Of a DNA stretch of 64,000 nucleotides, positions 12,857-20,393 are shown in pieces. The notes beneath the pieces are model-generated. The model had not been told where the DNA came from, did no database searches, and was given only the letters and a program-made list of their open reading frames with translations. A program made the position numbers and the translations under genes. Origin of the DNA: Streptomyces sp. NBS 14/10 (GTDB taxonomy: Bacteria > Actinomycetota > Actinomycetes > Streptomycetales > Streptomycetaceae); assembly GCF_002224125.1 (NCBI RefSeq), contig NZ_NCSM01000011.1:447282-511281 (forward strand), given 5' to 3'. The stretch's first letter is position 1. Each line of letters starts with the position of its first letter.

Positions 12857-13777
12857 TTACGGCCGGGGCTTGTTCGCGGGCTTGTCCGCGAAGACCCACC
12901 GGTTGCCCGCCAGCGCGTCGCCCGGCTCGGGCAGCGGGCCGCGTCCGTGCCGGCGGGTGAAGTCGAAGGGTGTGTGGACCGATGTGGACCAGCCCTTGCC
13001 CGCCAGATCACCTGCGGAGTCGGGCCGCGGCTCGCCATCGAACAGGTTGAGCAGATCGATGCCGATCTGGTGTTTCGTCGAGGTGTAGAGCGGGCTGTCG
13101 CTGAACTCCAGTAAGTCCTTCTCGAGCTTGGCCTCGTACGCCAGGGCGCTTCCCCCCGTGCTCAACCGGTCCACCGTGTCGATGAGGTACGTCTCGGCGG
13201 CGCCTGGCAGGTAGAACAGCAACCCCTCGGCCAGCCAGACGCTCGGTGCGGCCGCGTCGAAGCCGGCGTCGGTCAGCGCTCCGACCCAGTCGGCGCGCAG
13301 ATCGATCGGGATCGGTACGCGCGCTGCCTTCGGGGTGGCCGACAGTCCGCCGAGCACCTTGTGCTTGAACGCCAGCACGCCTTCCCGGTCGACCTCGAAG
13401 ACCACGCAGCCGCAGGGCCAGTCGAGACGGAACGCCCGCGAATCCAACCCCGCTCCGAGCAGGACCACTTGGCGGGCGCCCCCCGCGTGCACCGACCGGA
13501 GGAGAAAATCGTCGAGGACCCTAGTCCGCAGACCGAAGTAGCGCGCGAACCGCCCCCACAGCGGGTTCGCGTCCCCGTCCGGAACCTGTTGTATGCGGAC
13601 CGGCCAGCCCGCTGACGCCGGTGCGGCGAGCACGAAGTGCTCTGCGTAGACGTCCCGTGCCAGGCTGTCGTGGCGGTGGGTCTCGATCGCCCGTGCCGCG
13701 GCGACCATGAGAGCGGTCAGACCGACACCCCCTTCCACACCTTCCACACCGGTGTTCCGATGCGCTGTGCCGACCAT
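12857..13777 (-). CDS. SAM-dependent methyltransferase, LCM (leucine carboxyl methyltransferase-like) family
   Basis: A 306-residue class I methyltransferase of the PF04072 type common in actinobacteria. The SAM-binding motif VVLLGAGLDSRAFRL, the acidic strand VFEVDREGVLAFK and the family motif WLAEGLLFYLP are clear. Relatives methylate carboxylates (LCMT, Ppm1-like), so O-methylation of an acid is a reasonable inference. It is the last gene of a minus-strand run: furan synthase, aldehyde dehydrogenase, alcohol dehydrogenase, then this gene after a 72-bp gap. It may act on a carboxylate made by the aldehyde dehydrogenase. Confidence 0.85.
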   Translation of the reverse strand: MVGTAHRNTGVEGVEGGVGLTALMVAAARAIETHRHDSLARDVYAEHFVLAAPASAGWPVRIQQVPDGDANPLWGRFARYFGLRTRVLDDFLLRSVHAGGARQVVLLGAGLDSRAFRLDWPCGCVVFEVDREGVLAFKHKVLGGLSATPKAARVPIPIDLRADWVGALTDAGFDAAAPSVWLAEGLLFYLPGAAETYLIDTVDRLSTGGSALAYEAKLEKDLLEFSDSPLYTSTKHQIGIDLLNLFDGEPRPDSAGDLAGKGWSTSVHTPFDFTRRHGRGPLPEPGDALAGNRWVFADKPANKPRP

Positions 13778-13849
13778 GTGTCCTCCCTTGGCGCGAGCGT
13801 GCGGTGTCCGTGGCTGCCCGCCAGATGGCGCCCGCCAGGTGGCGGCCCA

Positions 13850-14983
13850 TCAGACAGGCAGCGGTGTTGAAACGCCTCGCTCATCGCCCCCTCCCTGCGG
13901 AACCAGCACGGGTTTGACCACGCGGCCCGCGTCGCAGTCGCGTTCGGCCTCGTTGATGTCGGCGAGCGGGTACGTACGGATCAGCTGGTCGAAAGGGAAC
14001 CACCCGGCCTGCCACAGCCCGGTCAGCCGCGGAATCAGCAGTCCCGGCACCGCGTCCCCCTCGCAGATGTGGGAGATCCTGCGGCCCCGGTCCAGTGCCC
14101 CCGGTTCGAGCGGCAGCGCGGTGTGGAGCCGGGCCACCAGGCCGAGGTGGCCGGTCGGGCGCAGGGCCCGGAGCGCGTCGTTGATCAGCTGGGCGGAGCC
14201 CGTGGTGTCCAGCGCGTACTGCGCGCCGCCGTCGGTCAGTCGCTGAATGCGGTCGGGCAGGTCGGCCGATGCCGCGTGCAGCGGGATCGCGCGAAGCCGC
14301 TCGGCGAGGGCCAGCCGTTCGGGGTGCCGGTCGACGGCCACGGTCACTGCCCCGGCGGCGGTGGCCGCCATCACCGCGGCCAGGCCCACCGCTCCCGCGC
14401 CGAAGACCGCGATGGTGTCGCCGGGGCCGACGCCGAAGGAGTTGAAGACAGCTCCGGCGCCGGTGAGGAAGCCGCAGCCGAGCGGGCCGAGCAGTTCGAC
14501 GGGCAGCGAGGGATCGACCCGGACGGCGTTGCGGGCCGGGACCATCGCGTACTCGGCGAAGGAGGACTGGCCGAACCACCGGGGAGCCAATTCGTCCCCG
14601 GCCGCGTCGGTGAACCGCGCCGCGTTCTCCTTGCGCCCTCCGAAGAGGTTGAGCGAGGCGAAGGAGTCACAGTAGGCGGGGGCCGCGCCCATGCAGTTCC
14701 GGCAGCGTCCGCAGGAGTCGAAGCTCAGCACGACATGGTCGCCGACGCTCAGGCCGGTGTCCGGGCCACCCGTCTCCACCACGACCCCGGCCCCCTCGTG
14801 GCCGAGCACCGCCGGCAGCGGTGAGCGGCCCGCCGAACGCCGGACCGCGAGATCGGTCCGGCACATCCCACAGCCCGCGATCCTGACCAGGATCTCGCCG
14901 TCGGCCGGTCCCGCGTTCAGGATCACCTCCTCGACGGCGAAGCGGCTCTGGTACGAGCGCAGCACCGCCGCGCCGAACCTCAT
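13850..14983 (-). CDS. Zinc-dependent alcohol dehydrogenase (aryl/benzyl-alcohol type)
   Basis: A 377-residue medium-chain dehydrogenase resembling aryl-alcohol and class III-like enzymes. The catalytic zinc site shows CGMCRTDLAV and GHEGAGVVVETG. The structural zinc loop SCGRCRNCMGAAPAYC has all four cysteines. The cofactor motif is FGAGAVGLAAVMAA. The ATG at 14983 follows a strong GGAGG. The upstream aldehyde dehydrogenase stops at 14986, so the two genes nearly touch and are surely co-transcribed. In the operon it could interconvert a hydroxymethyl and a formyl group on a furan ring; that is inference from context. Confidence 0.88.
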   Translation of the reverse strand: MRFGAAVLRSYQSRFAVEEVILNAGPADGEILVRIAGCGMCRTDLAVRRSAGRSPLPAVLGHEGAGVVVETGGPDTGLSVGDHVVLSFDSCGRCRNCMGAAPAYCDSFASLNLFGGRKENAARFTDAAGDELAPRWFGQSSFAEYAMVPARNAVRVDPSLPVELLGPLGCGFLTGAGAVFNSFGVGPGDTIAVFGAGAVGLAAVMAATAAGAVTVAVDRHPERLALAERLRAIPLHAASADLPDRIQRLTDGGAQYALDTTGSAQLINDALRALRPTGHLGLVARLHTALPLEPGALDRGRRISHICEGDAVPGLLIPRLTGLWQAGWFPFDQLIRTYPLADINEAERDCDAGRVVKPVLVPQGGGDERGVSTPLPV

Positions 14984-14985
14984 CG

Positions 14986-16389
14986 TCACGCCTCCTCCGG
15001 ACGGTGCACGACGAACGGCCTGAGGTTCCCGTAGAGCCCCCACGGCCCGCCCGCGACGCCGACACCGCTCTCCTTGATGCCGGCGAAGGGCTGGGCGAGG
15101 GACAGTTCGGCGTGGTGGTTGATCCACGCCGTCCCGCACTCCAGCCGGTCGGCCACCGCCTCGGCCCGGTCGAGGTCGGTCCCCCATACCGAGCCGCCCA
15201 GCCCGAAGCCGGTGCCGTTGGCCGCCTCGAGGGCTTCGTCGAGGCTCCCGTACGGCAGCACGGGCAGGACCGGACCGAACTGCTCCTCCGTCACCACTGG
15301 GCAGTCGGAGGGGACATCGGCCAGGATCGTCGGGGCGAAGAAGTAGCCCGGTCGGTCCAGCCGGTGGCCACCGGCCACGGCTCTGGCACCGGCTGCCAGG
15401 GCCTGGGTCGTGTAGCGCTCGACCCGGGCCAGTTGGGGGGCGTTGTTGACCGGCCCCAGCTGCGACCCCGGGTCGAGCCCGGCTCCGACGACGGCGGTCT
15501 TCGCGCGCTCTGCCAGGGCCTCGACCACCTGGGCGTAGAGCCGGGCCGGGGCGTAGACGCGCTTGACCGCCATGCAGACCTGCCCGCAGTTGCGGAACGC
15601 CGCCCAGAACAACCGGTCCGCGATCCGCTCCACATCCACGTCCTCCAGCAGAATAGCGGCGTCGTTACCGCCCAGCTCCAGGGTGACCCGGGCGAGCGAG
15701 GCCGCCGCGCCCTCCGCGACGGCCCGTCCGGTGCGCATCGAACCGGTGAAGGTCACGTGGCGGATCCCCGGATGGGACGCGAGGCGGGCGCCGAGGGGTT
15801 CGCGACCGGTGACGATCGTCAGTACGTCCTCGGGGAGCGCGGCGGAGATGACGGACCCCAGCAACCGTGTGGCGAGGGGCGTGAACGGGGAGGGCTTGAG
15901 CACCATCGTATTGCCTGCGGCGAGCGCGGGCGCGAACTTCGCCGACGCGAGCTGGAGGGGAAAATTCCACGGGACGATCGCGGCGACGGGCCCGAGCGGT
16001 CGCCAGCGGATCTCGCCGCGTACCGGCCGACCGTCCCTGATCGGCTGGGGCCCGGGGTCCAGCTCGGCGAAGTAGCGCAGGCGGGCCGCCGTACGGGCGA
16101 TCTCCGCGTACGACTCGGCCAGGGGTTTGCCCTGTTCACGGGTGAGCAGCGGAGCGAGGTCGGCCCCGGCCTCCTCCACGGCGTCGGCTGCCACGAGCAA
16201 CGCGGCGGTGCGGGCGACGGGATCGGCCCGCCAGCCGCGCCAGGCCTCGTGGGCCCGCTCGACGACGGCGTCCAACTCGTCCGGGTGCTGATCGGGAGCC
16301 TCGTCGAAGGCCTCGCCCACTGCCGGATCGAGAACGGCGAACCGCTCGTCGCGGGTCCCGGGCGCGCGACGGGGCGAATGTATCGGCAT
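14986..16389 (-). CDS. NAD(P)-dependent aldehyde dehydrogenase
   Basis: A 467-residue aldehyde dehydrogenase that should oxidise an aldehyde to a carboxylate. Visible family motifs are VPWNFPLQLASAK (cofactor site), FTGSMRTGRAVA, the general-base glutamate in LELGGNDAA, the catalytic cysteine in CGQVCMAVKRVYAP, and EEQFGPVLPV. The ATG at 16389 lies 8 bp after the furan synthase stop and has only a weak ribosome site, implying translational coupling. In this operon the natural substrate may be the furan aldehyde made by the upstream enzyme. Confidence 0.9.
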   Translation of the reverse strand: MPIHSPRRAPGTRDERFAVLDPAVGEAFDEAPDQHPDELDAVVERAHEAWRGWRADPVARTAALLVAADAVEEAGADLAPLLTREQGKPLAESYAEIARTAARLRYFAELDPGPQPIRDGRPVRGEIRWRPLGPVAAIVPWNFPLQLASAKFAPALAAGNTMVLKPSPFTPLATRLLGSVISAALPEDVLTIVTGREPLGARLASHPGIRHVTFTGSMRTGRAVAEGAAASLARVTLELGGNDAAILLEDVDVERIADRLFWAAFRNCGQVCMAVKRVYAPARLYAQVVEALAERAKTAVVGAGLDPGSQLGPVNNAPQLARVERYTTQALAAGARAVAGGHRLDRPGYFFAPTILADVPSDCPVVTEEQFGPVLPVLPYGSLDEALEAANGTGFGLGGSVWGTDLDRAEAVADRLECGTAWINHHAELSLAQPFAGIKESGVGVAGGPWGLYGNLRPFVVHRPEEA

Positions 16390-16397
16390 GCCGGCGG

Positions 16398-17153
16398 TCA
16401 GCTCGCGGCGGCGACGGCAGCCGCGTGTTCCCGGGCGTGCCGGTCCATCTCCGCCCGGAAGGCGGCCACCAGCTGCGGCTGAATCCTTCCGGTGGTGCGG
16501 TCGCCCCCCTGGCAGACCGCCCCGCGCACCCCCACGATGTCCGTGCCGATGCGGGTCAGCGCGCCGAGGTCTCCCACCTTGACGCTGCCCGCGAGGGCGG
16601 CGAGCAGATCGGCCTCGTGGGCCAGCCGGACGAACTCCGCGCAGACGTCGGGCGGAACGTGGTCGAACAGCCGTGTCCCGTCCTTGATCGCGGTGTCGAG
16701 CATGGCCGCGTCGGAGCCGGAGCGGCGGGCGATGTCGGGCAGCGCGAGCGGGTTGACGCAGCCGATCCGGCCGGCGTCGGCGTAACCCGAGGCGACGACG
16801 AACGCGTCCGGCCGATAGTCCTTCACCGCCCGGACGACCCCTCGCATGACCTCGATGGCCTGTTCGGGCGTCGTGCACCCGTAGAGGCCGACCTTGATAT
16901 ACGTGGCTCCGGAGACAGTTGCACCGAGCGCCGCCTGGGCCACCGTGCCGGGCTTGTACGGGACGTCTCCCACGGTGGCGGACACCGGCTTGTCCGCCGG
17001 GACCGTATCGCGGATCTCCCTGATGACCCACGGGAAGTTCGCGCCCAGCGAGCCCTCGTCAGGCTTCTTGACATCGACGATGTCGAGGTGCTCCGCCGCC
17101 TTCGCGCAGTCGAGAGCCTCCTCGACGCTGTCCGGGGAGATGAGAAGCAACAA
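16398..17153 (-). CDS. mfnB-like: (5-formylfuran-3-yl)methyl phosphate synthase (MfnB/DUF556 family)
   Basis: A 251-residue TIM-barrel enzyme whose archaeal relatives condense two glyceraldehyde-3-phosphates into a formylfuran phosphate, the furan of methanofuran. Active-site motifs are intact. Starting at TTG 17153, Asp27 and Lys29 ([16 protein letters not shown]), Lys87 (YIKVGLYG), and Asp153 and Lys157 (MLDTAIKDG) each sit two residues after the M. jannaschii catalytic positions as I recall them. [17 protein letters not shown] closes the barrel. I prefer this TTG because AGGA lies upstream and the N-terminus then matches the family ([13 protein letters not shown]). A GTG at 17180 would add nine residues and lies inside a hairpin. 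It is the first gene of a four-gene operon. Confidence 0.88.
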
Positions 17154-17177
17154 CGTGGATTCCTTCCACCGCATATC

Positions 17178-17197
17178 CACCTGCCGAAGGGCAGGTG
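17178..17197. promoter_or_regulatory. Hairpin in leader of furan-synthase operon
   Basis: CACCTGCC-GAAG-GGCAGGTG is a perfect 8-bp stem with a 4-base loop. It lies 25 bases ahead of the TTG start of the MfnB-like gene and downstream of the MerR gene. No U-run follows, so it may be a weak terminator after merR, a processing site or an attenuator. A smaller stem just downstream (GTGGA-AGGAA-TCCAC) would place the Shine-Dalgarno bases in its loop. Confidence 0.45.
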
Positions 17198-17335
17198 TGC
17201 GGAGTCGTCTGGATCACGTGCGGTCTGCTCATCATTGCCGCGGCCCGTGGCCAACGGCAGGGCGCGCGGAGTCCGAACGGGTCGTTGCATGACGTGTACG
17301 CGCCCCTGAGCACGCCGTCCACGCCGGTCCGAAAC

Positions 17336-17794
17336 CTACGGCCTGATGGGGATGTGGGGAGCAGCGTCCAGGCCGATGCGATCCGCCACCATCTGCTGGA
17401 AATGAGCGCACTGGGTGAAGTCCTCGTGATCGCAGTCGAGGGCGCATTCGATGAGGTCGAGGGACGCCTGCGCAGCTGCGATACGGGAGCGAAGCGCCTC
17501 GGCCTCCTCGTACAGGATGTCCCGTCGCTGCGTCGGATCGGCGGCAGCGGCCAGAGAGCGGATGGTGTCGAGGGAGAGCCCTGCCTCCTTGGCGCGCAGG
17601 ATGACGGCGACACGCGTGAGGTCGGTGATGCCGTAGCGGCGCCGACCGGCGGCATCGCGTGCGGGGGTGAGGATCCCCATCGACTCCCAGTGCCGCAGGA
17701 CGTGCGTGGCCAGCCCGAAGCGTTGGGCGATGGCACCGATGCTCATGGGCTCGCGCCCGCCGTCGGCAGTCATCCCGTGCTCGCTTGACTTCAT
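17336..17794 (-). CDS. MerR-family transcriptional regulator
   Basis: A 152-residue MerR-type regulator. The winged helix-turn-helix reads SIGAIAQRFGLATHVLRHWE, then GRRRYGITDLTRVAVI. A dimerisation helix runs about 90-120, and a C-terminal segment with three cysteines (CALDCDHEDFTQC) might bind a metal or sense redox. The start is unsure: ATGs at 17794, 17773 and 17746 are all in frame and none has a strong ribosome site. It diverges from a methyltransferase and precedes the furan-synthase operon on the same strand, so it may control either. Confidence 0.87.
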   Translation of the reverse strand: MKSSEHGMTADGGREPMSIGAIAQRFGLATHVLRHWESMGILTPARDAAGRRRYGITDLTRVAVILRAKEAGLSLDTIRSLAAAADPTQRRDILYEEAEALRSRIAAAQASLDLIECALDCDHEDFTQCAHFQQMVADRIGLDAAPHIPIRP

Positions 17795-17808: not shown

Positions 17809-17823
17809 GCAGCCTTGGGGCTC

Positions 17824-18594
17824 ATGAACAGGGAAACAGATCAGAAACCCCAGTCGACGGACGACCTCATCGCGCTGCTCGACGCCGCCGACCGTCTACC
17901 GGGTGCGAAGGACCTGAGAGCACTGTCCTACGACTTGCTCGGCGCCGCCGCCGGCGAGTGGGTGGTCGACGTGGGGTGCGGCGCCGGCCGGGCCGTGGCG
18001 GAACTGGCCGAGCAGGGCGTGAAGGCCGTCGGTGTGGACCCGAGCGAGCGGATGATCGCCGTCGCCCGCGGCCGGTGGCCCGAGGGGGACTACCGGATCG
18101 CGGGGGCATACGAGTTGCCGCTGCAGGACGCCTCAGTGGACGGTTACCGGGCCGACAAGGTGTTCCATGAACTGAGCGAGCCGGAGCGGGCGTTGGCGGA
18201 AGCACGCAGAGTTCTTGTGCCCGGAGGGCGGATCGTGCTGGTCGGGCAGGACTGGGACACCTTCGTCATCGACTCCGCCGATCCGGCCCTTACCCGCACC
18301 ATCGTGCACGCCCGCGCCGACCTGACCGCCGGCCCGCGTGCCGCTCGCCGATACCGCAACCTGCTGCTGGACGCCTGCTTCGACGATGTGACGGTCGAGG
18401 TGCACACGGGCGTTTTCACCGGGCCGACGATGTTGCCCCTGCTCACCGGCCTGGCCGAAGGAGCTTGCTCCGTCGGCGCCGTCACGCGCGGCCAAGCGGA
18501 CAGCTGGATCGCTGAGCAGCGTGAGCGCGCCGAGGCCGACCGGGTCTTCCTGGCGCTGCCGATATTCGTGGCAGCGGCGACCGCACCGCGATGA
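17824..18594 (+). CDS. SAM-dependent methyltransferase
   Basis: A class I methyltransferase of about 256 residues. The SAM motif WVVDVGCGAGRAVAEL is followed by VGVDPSERMIAVAR and the post-motif LVPGGRIVLVGQDWDT. This resembles UbiE/COQ5-like small-molecule methyltransferases. The ATG at 17824 is chosen over an upstream in-frame TTG at 17815. It is transcribed away from the MerR gene and ends at a strong hairpin shared with the copper oxidase. It might decorate the product of the neighbouring furan operon, but that link is positional only. Confidence 0.85.
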   Translation: MNRETDQKPQSTDDLIALLDAADRLPGAKDLRALSYDLLGAAAGEWVVDVGCGAGRAVAELAEQGVKAVGVDPSERMIAVARGRWPEGDYRIAGAYELPLQDASVDGYRADKVFHELSEPERALAEARRVLVPGGRIVLVGQDWDTFVIDSADPALTRTIVHARADLTAGPRAARRYRNLLLDACFDDVTVEVHTGVFTGPTMLPLLTGLAEGACSVGAVTRGQADSWIAEQRERAEADRVFLALPIFVAAATAPR

Positions 18595-18687: not shown

Positions 18688-20298
18688 TCAGGCCTGGTAC
18701 GCGACCAGCGCCATCATGCCGGCCTCCCCGTGGTACGCGTTGTGGCAGTGCAGCATCCACTGGCCGGGGTTGTCGGCGTCGAAGACGACGGACAGCTTCT
18801 TCTTGGGCAGCACGATGGCGGTGTCCTTACGCGGGCCGCTGTTTCCGAGCTGGTAGGTGTGACCGTGCAGGTGCATCGGGTGCCACATCTCCGTGGTGTT
18901 GACGAAGTCCAGCCGGACCCGCTGCCCTTCCTCGATCGTGAGCGGATGCGCGGCCGGGTCGTCCATGTCGAAGGCCTTGCCGTTGATGGCCCAGTTGTAC
19001 TTGTCCATGCCGCCGGTCAGCTCGACACGGTGCACCCGGTCCACCTTCTTGGACGGCAGGCGGACATCGCCGGCCGCGCGCAGCTGGGACGCCGTCAGGA
19101 TCCTGCCGTTCAGTTCCTTCGGGCGGACGGTCGCCTTCGGCGCGCTGCCGGACCCTGTACGCACCAGGGCCATGCCGGTGGCGTTCTTGCCCTCGGCCAG
19201 CGCGACGAGCGGGAAGACGCCGTCGCCGACGGTGACCAGGACGTCGTACCGCTCCCCCATGCCGATCAGCAGGGCGTCGACCTGCTGGTGCTCGACGGGG
19301 AACCCGTCGGTGTGGGTGATGGTCAGCTTATGGCCGCCGAGCGCCACCCGGTACGCGGTGTCACCGCCCGCGTTGATGATCCGCAGTCGGACCCGCTTGC
19401 CGGGCTTGCCCTGGTAGACGTCCGGGTCGGCCGGCACTCGGCCGTTGACCAGGTGGTACGGATACTTCACGTCGCCGGCGTCGCCGCCGAGCAGCTCGCT
19501 CTCGGCGCCCATCAGCATGAACTTCATCGACGTTCCGCCGGACCCGGGCGAGGCGGACGGGGACGCGGAGTCCTCCGCCATGTCCATGCTCCCCTTGCCG
19601 TGCATGTCGTGGCCCTCCATGCCGCCGGAGCCGGAGTCACCGCCCATGTCCATGCCGCCCATACCTTGACGCAGTTCGGCGAGGACATCGTCGGGGGTGC
19701 CGGTGACTCCGTCGACCCAGTCGTCCAGGACGACGACCCATTCGTCGTCGTACGACAACGGCTCCCGGGGGTCCTCGACGATCAGCGGCGCGTACAGGCC
19801 GCGGTCGAGCTGCACGCCGACGTGGGGGTGGAAGAAGTACGTGCCGGGGGCGTCGGCGATGAAACGGTACGTGAAGTTGGCGCCCGCCCGTACGGCCTGC
19901 TGGGTCACCGGGGGCACGCCGTCCATGTCGTTGCGCATGGCGAGGCCGTGCCAGTGGATGGACGTGGTCGTCTTGTTCGGCAGTTGGTTGGAGAGTTCGG
20001 CCGCCAAGGTGTCGCCGGCGGACAGGCGGATTCCCTTGCCGGGGGCCTGACCGCTGAAGGCCCAGCTCTTGGCCATGATCCTGCCGCCGAGGTCGAGTAC
20101 GGCGGGCGCGGCGGTCAGGGTCACCTTCTGCGTCCTGCCGGTGCCCTTCCGCTTCTTCTCGGTCGCGGCGACCGCCGAGCCGGAGGGGCTGATCAGGGCG
20201 GACGTGCTGGTGGAGCCGCTACTGCAGGCGGCGAGCGCGCCGGCGCCCGCGACGCCGAGCCCCGCGAGCAGGACGGAGCGACGGTTGATGCTGTTCAT
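18688..20298 (-). CDS. Exported multicopper oxidase (CopA/laccase-like)
   Basis: A 536-residue secreted oxidase. The N-terminus has twin arginines (INRRSVLLAG) and a lipobox LAAC (Cys25), so export is probably by Tat with lipid anchoring. Copper sites are complete: HWHG (115-118), FFHPHVG, HPMHLHGH and HCHNAYHGEAGM, which supply the type 1, 2 and 3 ligands. A Met/His/Gly-rich stretch near 214-246 (MGGMDMGGDS, GHDMHGKGSMDM) is like those of CopA/PcoA/CueO that bind extra copper. The role is likely Cu(I) oxidation and copper tolerance. It follows a DUF6153 gene behind a CsoR-type operator. Confidence 0.92.
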   Translation of the reverse strand: MNSINRRSVLLAGLGVAGAGALAACSSGSTSTSALISPSGSAVAATEKKRKGTGRTQKVTLTAAPAVLDLGGRIMAKSWAFSGQAPGKGIRLSAGDTLAAELSNQLPNKTTTSIHWHGLAMRNDMDGVPPVTQQAVRAGANFTYRFIADAPGTYFFHPHVGVQLDRGLYAPLIVEDPREPLSYDDEWVVVLDDWVDGVTGTPDDVLAELRQGMGGMDMGGDSGSGGMEGHDMHGKGSMDMAEDSASPSASPGSGGTSMKFMLMGAESELLGGDAGDVKYPYHLVNGRVPADPDVYQGKPGKRVRLRIINAGGDTAYRVALGGHKLTITHTDGFPVEHQQVDALLIGMGERYDVLVTVGDGVFPLVALAEGKNATGMALVRTGSGSAPKATVRPKELNGRILTASQLRAAGDVRLPSKKVDRVHRVELTGGMDKYNWAINGKAFDMDDPAAHPLTIEEGQRVRLDFVNTTEMWHPMHLHGHTYQLGNSGPRKDTAIVLPKKKLSVVFDADNPGQWMLHCHNAYHGEAGMMALVAYQA

Positions 20299-20393
20299 CG
20301 GTGTCCTCGATCTCAGTGTGCACATAAGGAGTTGGCGTGCTGGAACGGCTCCTCGGCATGACAAAGGCGGCACGAGAAAGCCGTGGGCACGGC

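Follow-up and report, generated by a model that had tools for sequence, protein, structure and literature searches.

What does an MfnB-family furan synthase do in a Streptomyces, packed together with two dehydrogenases and a methyltransferase? The question is raised by a stretch of 64,000 nucleotides from Streptomyces sp. NBS 14/10 (NZ_NCSM01000011.1, positions 447,282 to 511,281), the whole of which is termed "the window". Four adjacent genes in it had been predicted to make a furan carboxylate or dicarboxylate and to methylate it. Enzymes of the MfnB family are described as converting two molecules of glyceraldehyde 3-phosphate into 4-(hydroxymethyl)furfural phosphate (4-HFC-P) (PMC6604932). 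Judged from gene content and conservation, the four genes probably constitute a self-contained, apparently mobile cassette for a small 2,4-substituted furan that would be oxidized, carboxyl-methylated, and used outside central metabolism.

The cassette lies on the minus strand, and the original coordinates and intergenic gaps proved accurate. MfnB (16398 to 17153) comes first and is followed after 8 bp by an aldehyde dehydrogenase of 467 amino acids (ALDH, 14986 to 16389), after another 2 bp by a zinc alcohol dehydrogenase of 377 amino acids and of the benzyl-alcohol dehydrogenase type (ADH, 13850 to 14983), and then by an LCM-type S-adenosylmethionine (SAM)-dependent methyltransferase of 306 amino acids (LCM, 12857 to 13777). 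An alternative GTG start at 14989 would give ADH a 4-bp overlap with ALDH, as in many relatives. The TTG start of MfnB at 17153 is backed by the alignment, where a [T/G]TG follows a conserved AAGGA-type ribosome-binding site. A length of 251 amino acids is found in many of 120 MfnB homologues among the matches listed.

Each protein is assigned to its family by profile and by catalytic residues. MfnB reaches 265 bits against PF04476 (cut-off 22), 389 bits against the equivalog profile NF002573 (cut-off 341), and, in a near full-length match to archaeal MJ1099, 277 bits; it is the only PF04476 match in the window genome (G000; 12.1 Mb in 127 contigs), and the gene carries the MfnB annotation from NCBI. 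The five active-site residues of the original prediction are retained in 145 of 145 distinct cassette MfnB sequences, the window included, when placed by motif. ALDH matches PF00171 with 452 bits, has 8yen as its best solved relative, and carries Cys272 and Glu238 where catalytic residues are expected; this Cys and Glu are kept in all 122 intact distinct copies. For MfnB, the active site is described as containing Lys27 and two lysines plus two aspartates (PMC6604932), and Lys155 (PMC11365854). ADH matches PF08240/PF00107, and its best solved relatives are 5tnx (294 bits) and 1f8f (258 bits), the latter a benzyl alcohol dehydrogenase. All 136 intact distinct ADH copies contain the catalytic and structural zinc ligands. 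LCM scores 179 bits against PF04072 and 249 bits against TIGR00027 (cut-off 94), has 2ckd and 6id6 as solved relatives, and belongs to a set of 141 sequences that all keep the SAM motif of two glycines and an aspartate.

The genes occur together far beyond this strain. PF04476 matches are found in 73 of 295 Streptomyces genomes, and a strong MfnB relative in 70, about a quarter of the genus sample. An ADH orthologue (at least 75% identity) occurs in 70 of the 295 genomes, the same 70, two of them with fragments only; agreement among the MfnB, ADH, and leader genome sets was judged by eye. Among the 225 mfnB-negative genomes, in which the three with weak PF04476 matches (G080, G108, and G228) are counted, no ADH orthologue appears at E ≤ 1e-80, and all further matches have at most 52% identity. 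Across the phylum, 396 genomes gave six PF04476 matches, of which three belong to Streptomyces and one lies below the cut-off; the remaining two (G561 and G336) show no cassette gene in the available DNA, which in G336 stops 0.8 kb past MfnB.

Linkage was examined by clustering the predicted genes of 112 loci, comprising the best 80 of 285 named-genome loci, 31 genus loci, and the window; the set keeps duplicates of one organism, and 31 of the 112 are short pieces too small for four genes. MfnB is present in 112 loci, ALDH in 99, LCM in 80, and ADH in 80, in the nearly constant order MfnB, ALDH, ADH, LCM, usually with 8 bp between MfnB and ALDH and a 4-bp overlap of ALDH and ADH. The next flanking family, an EF-hand protein, appears in 28 loci, and every other family in at most nine, many loci being short; apart from these genes the flanks are unrelated. 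A census limited to loci that extend 4.5 kb or more downstream of mfnB gives the same picture. For the genus, the surroundings of the 69 strong mfnB loci other than the window were taken, six of which were dropped for lack of room; MfnB, ADH, and LCM are intact in 62 of the remaining 63 and all four genes in 56. The family set holds 14 loci from other genera and one same-genus locus (G760), with the cassette-free G739 (MfnB at 51% identity) excluded; one of the 15 was too short, and in the other 14 (13 from other genera) the three genes are intact in 12 and all four in 11. Of the 80 named loci, six were dropped, leaving 74 with the three genes in 73 and all four in 64. The three census sets overlap in organisms. 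The four-gene linkage, whose absence elsewhere was to have counted against the original prediction, is by census and co-occurrence a recurrent arrangement, an outcome clearly in favor of that prediction. That the genes are chance neighbors in one genome is practically untenable, being refuted by the census, the linkage, the ADH co-occurrence, and the leader counts described below.

Two genes beyond mfnB were considered as members and rejected: the families of a MerR regulator (17336 to 17794) and of a methyltransferase gene (17815 to 18594) each occur in only two loci, the window and L001, which are the same genome. A multicopper oxidase (18688 to 20340), also upstream of the window cassette, is not conserved with it.

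What is conserved upstream is a leader. The DNA before mfnB, variable from locus to locus in other respects, has a common stretch of about 125 bases, placed in the window at 17154 to 17290 (minus strand; 17290 being the cut edge of the alignment) by alignment A1, whose 96 sequences are the window and 95 others hand-picked from 144 distinct leaders. Its layout is a −35-like box CGCCCT(A/G)CCG of the presumed promoter (17255 to 17264, minus strand), 18 or 19 bases, AATGATGAGC, ACCGCA, a possible hairpin, and the ribosome-binding site. In the −10-like box AATGAT (17231 to 17236, minus strand) the second A is kept in 96 of 96 aligned sequences and the final T in 94. Of the 96 sequences searched, 93 fit the pattern, and in 91 of these the boxes are separated by 18 or 19 bases. 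Among 143 leaders, an exact search for the −10 motif matched 114; of the other 29, 28 were viewed by eye. This conservation and spacing are as expected for a promoter −10 element, and the leader is presumed to be promoter-like, with a −35-like box that differs from the usual TTGACA. In two Streptomyces loci (L082 and L105), the leader seems to contain a repeated CACCGCACATG-like segment, a possible leader expansion.

A covariance model of the leader finds one match per mfnB-bearing genome, directly before mfnB, in 70 of 70, a count that holds partly by construction, since the model was trained on many of the same genomes and about 30 of its scored bases are ribosome site and coding start. Elsewhere it matches in one of the 225 mfnB-negative genomes (G018), near chance level (E 0.003 for one genome, with 295 searched); the search used strict filters with ten candidates scored per genome, and absence elsewhere holds to that sensitivity. 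A regulon sharing the leader was set aside, that near-chance match being the only other one.

A strong conserved RNA structure in the leader was likewise rejected. RNAalifold predicts no pairs on the 96-sequence alignment, and support is mixed for the possible hairpin in the predicted fold directly before the ribosome-binding site (17169 to 17202, minus strand). Among 500 shuffles, none had as many cells changed on both sides (46), one had as many cells paired (78%), and seven had as high a covariation score, while 427 had as many pairs changed on both sides and 420 as many further pair types. Eight leaders, folded singly, gave mostly ordinary structures (z −3.7 to +1.1). In some such folds the −10 region pairs with early mfnB codons, a possibility that was discarded, the columns being nearly invariant. 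No Rfam family reaches its gathering score at the leader, and extra synonymous constraint at the 5′ end of mfnB is unclear (0.86 for the first 20 codons vs. a mean of 0.835).

The cassette, control region included, appears to move horizontally as a unit. Similarity between cassettes hardly follows rpoB similarity: among 37 genomes with both, identities are correlated with a Mantel rho of 0.11 (p 0.024), and the nearest neighbor is the same for cassette and rpoB in eight. Cassette presence requires at least 21 changes on an rpoB tree of 101 genomes, which comprises all 39 cassette genomes of the initial 150 and, from the 111 others, the first 62. On contigs of at least 6.5 Mb, the cassette lies in the outer 15% of either end in 15 of 23 cases, a count that omits G224, or in 16 of 24 with it; G224, G119, and G741 have broken reading frames that are possibly sequencing errors. 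Median ratios of nonsynonymous to synonymous substitution, over about 600 random pairs per gene, are 0.17 for MfnB, 0.24 for ALDH, 0.26 for ADH, and 0.28 for LCM. In 18 of 131 distinct cassettes LCM is encoded on the opposite strand; its strand changes at least ten times on the cassette tree, and it stays near ADH in nearly all cassettes, flipped ones included. In L180 it begins about 5.5 kb after mfnB, where about 2.6 kb is usual. Counts of state changes on the cassette tree do not separate gain from loss.

The most likely route is as follows. Transcribed from its own promoter, the cassette would supply MfnB, which is predicted to join two triose phosphates into 4-(hydroxymethyl)furfural phosphate. 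An unlinked phosphatase may then remove the phosphate and free the hydroxymethyl group. ADH, together with ALDH where present, could oxidize the hydroxymethyl and formyl groups to a furan carboxylic acid, and LCM would methylate the carboxylate to a methyl ester. The benzyl-alcohol dehydrogenase type of ADH suits a hydroxymethyl-furan substrate, and membership of the LCM family, by analogy, fits carboxyl methylation. The likely product would be a small, diffusible methyl furan-carboxylate with a hydroxymethyl, formyl, or second ester group, which may act as a signal or bioactive compound.

Several points weigh against this route. The first is that ALDH is a dispensable member of the cassette. 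Of 131 distinct cassettes picked for intact MfnB, ADH, and LCM, 129 were scored for ALDH and two were not; the gene is intact in 116 and absent or truncated in 13, and its state changes at least ten times on the cassette tree, most simply read as losses. In six of seven ALDH-deficient genomes checked, no close ALDH exists elsewhere at E ≤ 1e-100, and in the seventh (G082) the sole close ALDH is its own copy, in place and in two pieces. Since ALDH is dispensable, another ALDH may serve, the carboxylate may arise otherwise, or the product may vary. Second, the conserved unit contains no phosphatase, which the release of the hydroxymethyl group needs. Third, the substrate of LCM is assigned from family analogy.

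These ALDH losses are also what speaks for a different exit from the same furan entry, in which ADH would work in the reductive direction or be the sole redox step, to give a bis(hydroxymethyl) or formyl furan, LCM would methylate something else, and ALDH would clear reactive aldehyde; the 13 deficient cassettes with all else intact, and the near absence of substitutes in the genomes checked, are as this alternative would have it. Against it, ALDH is intact in 56 of the 63 genus census loci and under purifying selection, and LCM is retained about as strictly as ADH, pointing to a carboxylate substrate in every lineage. We regard this exit as a minor possibility. Of the original claim of a furan carboxylate or dicarboxylate, the part that stands is a conserved unit built on a furan synthase and apparently separate from methanofuran synthesis, with ADH and LCM of fitting types; the repeated absence of ALDH argues against a fixed dicarboxylate product.

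A further point against the oxidized and methylated furan comes from S. coelicolor, which has a protein 85% identical to the window MfnB. This protein is likely SCO6440, located in the cassette that strain M145 presumably carries. A study that applied a furan-trapping probe to M145 supernatant reported nothing significant in the zoomed region (PMC11070956). The weight of that result is slight because the probe was aimed at methylenomycin furans and had a detection limit near 69 µM for the 3-furoic acid adduct (PMC11070956). The gene mfnB, SCO6440, is named as one of three up-regulated genes picked to check the RNA-seq of a mutant in abrB, a two-component system tied to antibiotic production; fold changes by quantitative reverse-transcription PCR are described as differing more for the up-regulated genes (PMC7581861).

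Might MfnB have been recruited to another aldol-type reaction, with the cassette making or degrading a compound that is not a furan? The fold can diverge, as shown by distant PF04476 proteins (G739, G080, G108, and G228) that by eye have a glutamate in the place of Lys27. The cassette clade, against this, retains all five active-site residues without exception, and the window MfnB scores above the equivalog cut-off. A non-furan cassette is accordingly rated improbable.

The distant proteins have surroundings of their own. The G739 protein (locus L213, 4819 to 9196), 51% identical to the window MfnB and without a cassette, has by eye an arginine in the place of Lys85 as well; its neighbors are a UbiA prenyltransferase, a member of the amino acid kinase family, and an aminotransferase, which may form another, MfnC/MfnE-like gene set. 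The proteins of G108, G228, and G080 (loci L193, L194, and L195) are 454, 454, and 547 amino acids long and match PF04476 in part, close to the N-terminus. In two of these genomes the long protein is followed by apparently the same two genes, which lack a Pfam match in the one genome scanned.

MfnB being an early enzyme of the methanofuran pathway, the cassette could also belong to a methanofuran-like C1 cofactor pathway. Two other Actinomycetota lend this some color: in L196 (G561) and L197 (G336), MfnB relatives at 44 and 46% identity have neighbors that by eye resemble genes for kinases and for a formylmethanofuran dehydrogenase or molybdopterin oxidoreductase, one kinase being identified by Pfam. 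No cassette genes were found there within the 4.2 kb (L196) and 0.8 kb (L197) available downstream. TIGR03123 (MfnF) has no match in the whole window genome, with the controls M. jannaschii and M. acetivorans both matching, and the cassette partners are not methanofuran genes. A cofactor pathway is disfavored by the absence of TIGR03123 and ranks as very improbable. The earlier statement that no other methanofuran gene is present is borne out for MfnF by a genome-wide search that did not extend to MfnA, MfnC, MfnD, or MfnE.

The EF-hand family noted beside the cassette also co-occurs with it across genomes. A gene for an EF-hand protein of about 177 amino acids, matched by Pfam EF-hand families and presumably calerythrin-like, is present in 52 of the 70 cassette genomes vs. 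17 of the 225 others. The excess is seen in both halves of the sample: 30 of 39 mfnB-bearing genomes vs. 10 of 111 others in the first 150, and 22 of 31 vs. 7 of 114 in the second set of 145. Of the 52 genomes that have both, 27 place the gene no more than 8 kb from mfnB, in several arrangements, and 25 place it further off or on another contig. Over 16 independent pairs on the rpoB tree, the two traits differ in the same direction in 9.2, in opposite directions in 0.3, and show no difference in 6.5 (median p 0.004, range 0.0005 to 0.039); with the roles of the traits swapped, the median p is again 0.004, with a range up to 0.23. The matches span 49 to 91% identity, as in a broad family. Because the window genome (at E 1e-25) and 18 of the 70 cassette genomes are without a match, the EF-hand protein is an associate of the cassette, not an obligatory part. 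A calcium-linked furan signaling module, in which the mobile, own-promoter cassette would make a furan ester hormone and the co-inherited EF-hand protein would act in production or response, is offered as a speculative extension that we hold to be rather unlikely. If the EF-hand link is real, furan metabolism would be tied to calcium in Streptomyces.

The family of the first enzyme was known; the pathway context, the leader, and the EF-hand partner are new. A literature search, with most subscription journals and all patents outside its scope, found no description of the cassette, the leader, or the EF-hand partner. Streptomyces MfnB enzymes are reportedly used in patents on 2,4-furandicarboxylate. 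Judged from the titles of two papers, it is doubtful that flufuran is a natural 3-furoate. Given its presence in about a quarter of the genus genomes examined, many Streptomyces should produce the small-molecule family to which the cassette points. Few enzymatic furan routes are described as known, and 2,4-substituted furans attract interest as precursors of chemicals and plastics (PMC6604932); the cassette offers natural enzymes for such furans.

Several known systems resemble the cassette in part. It shares with archaeal MfnB (MJ1099) the family, a near full-length match, and the active-site residues, and differs in its partners, an ALDH, an ADH, and a methyltransferase, with no further methanofuran gene in the cassette. 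An MfnB annotation outside archaea is also described for a symbiosis region of insect-associated Burkholderiaceae, where it stands with formylmethanofuran dehydrogenase subunit B and others, not with this cassette (PMC9088363). The pairing of ALDH with an ADH nearest to 5tnx and 1f8f resembles benzyl alcohol/benzaldehyde dehydrogenase pairs, except that here the pair stands after a furan synthase and before a methyltransferase. That methyltransferase, with its LCM family membership and SAM motif, is presumably akin to TcmP-like carboxyl methyltransferases. An MmfL-type synthase or TetR receptor conserved beside the cassette was not found, flanking families other than the EF-hand one reaching at most nine of 112 loci; receptors were not searched genome-wide. 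The likeness to the methylenomycin furan (MMF) system mmfLHP of S. coelicolor, whose product is described as a hormone, is that of a small gene set proposed to draw a furan from triose phosphate (PMC6604932, PMC11070956). The difference lies in the synthase: MmfL is proposed to condense dihydroxyacetone phosphate with a β-ketoacyl thioester, and MMFs bear alkyl chains, whereas the synthase here is MfnB.

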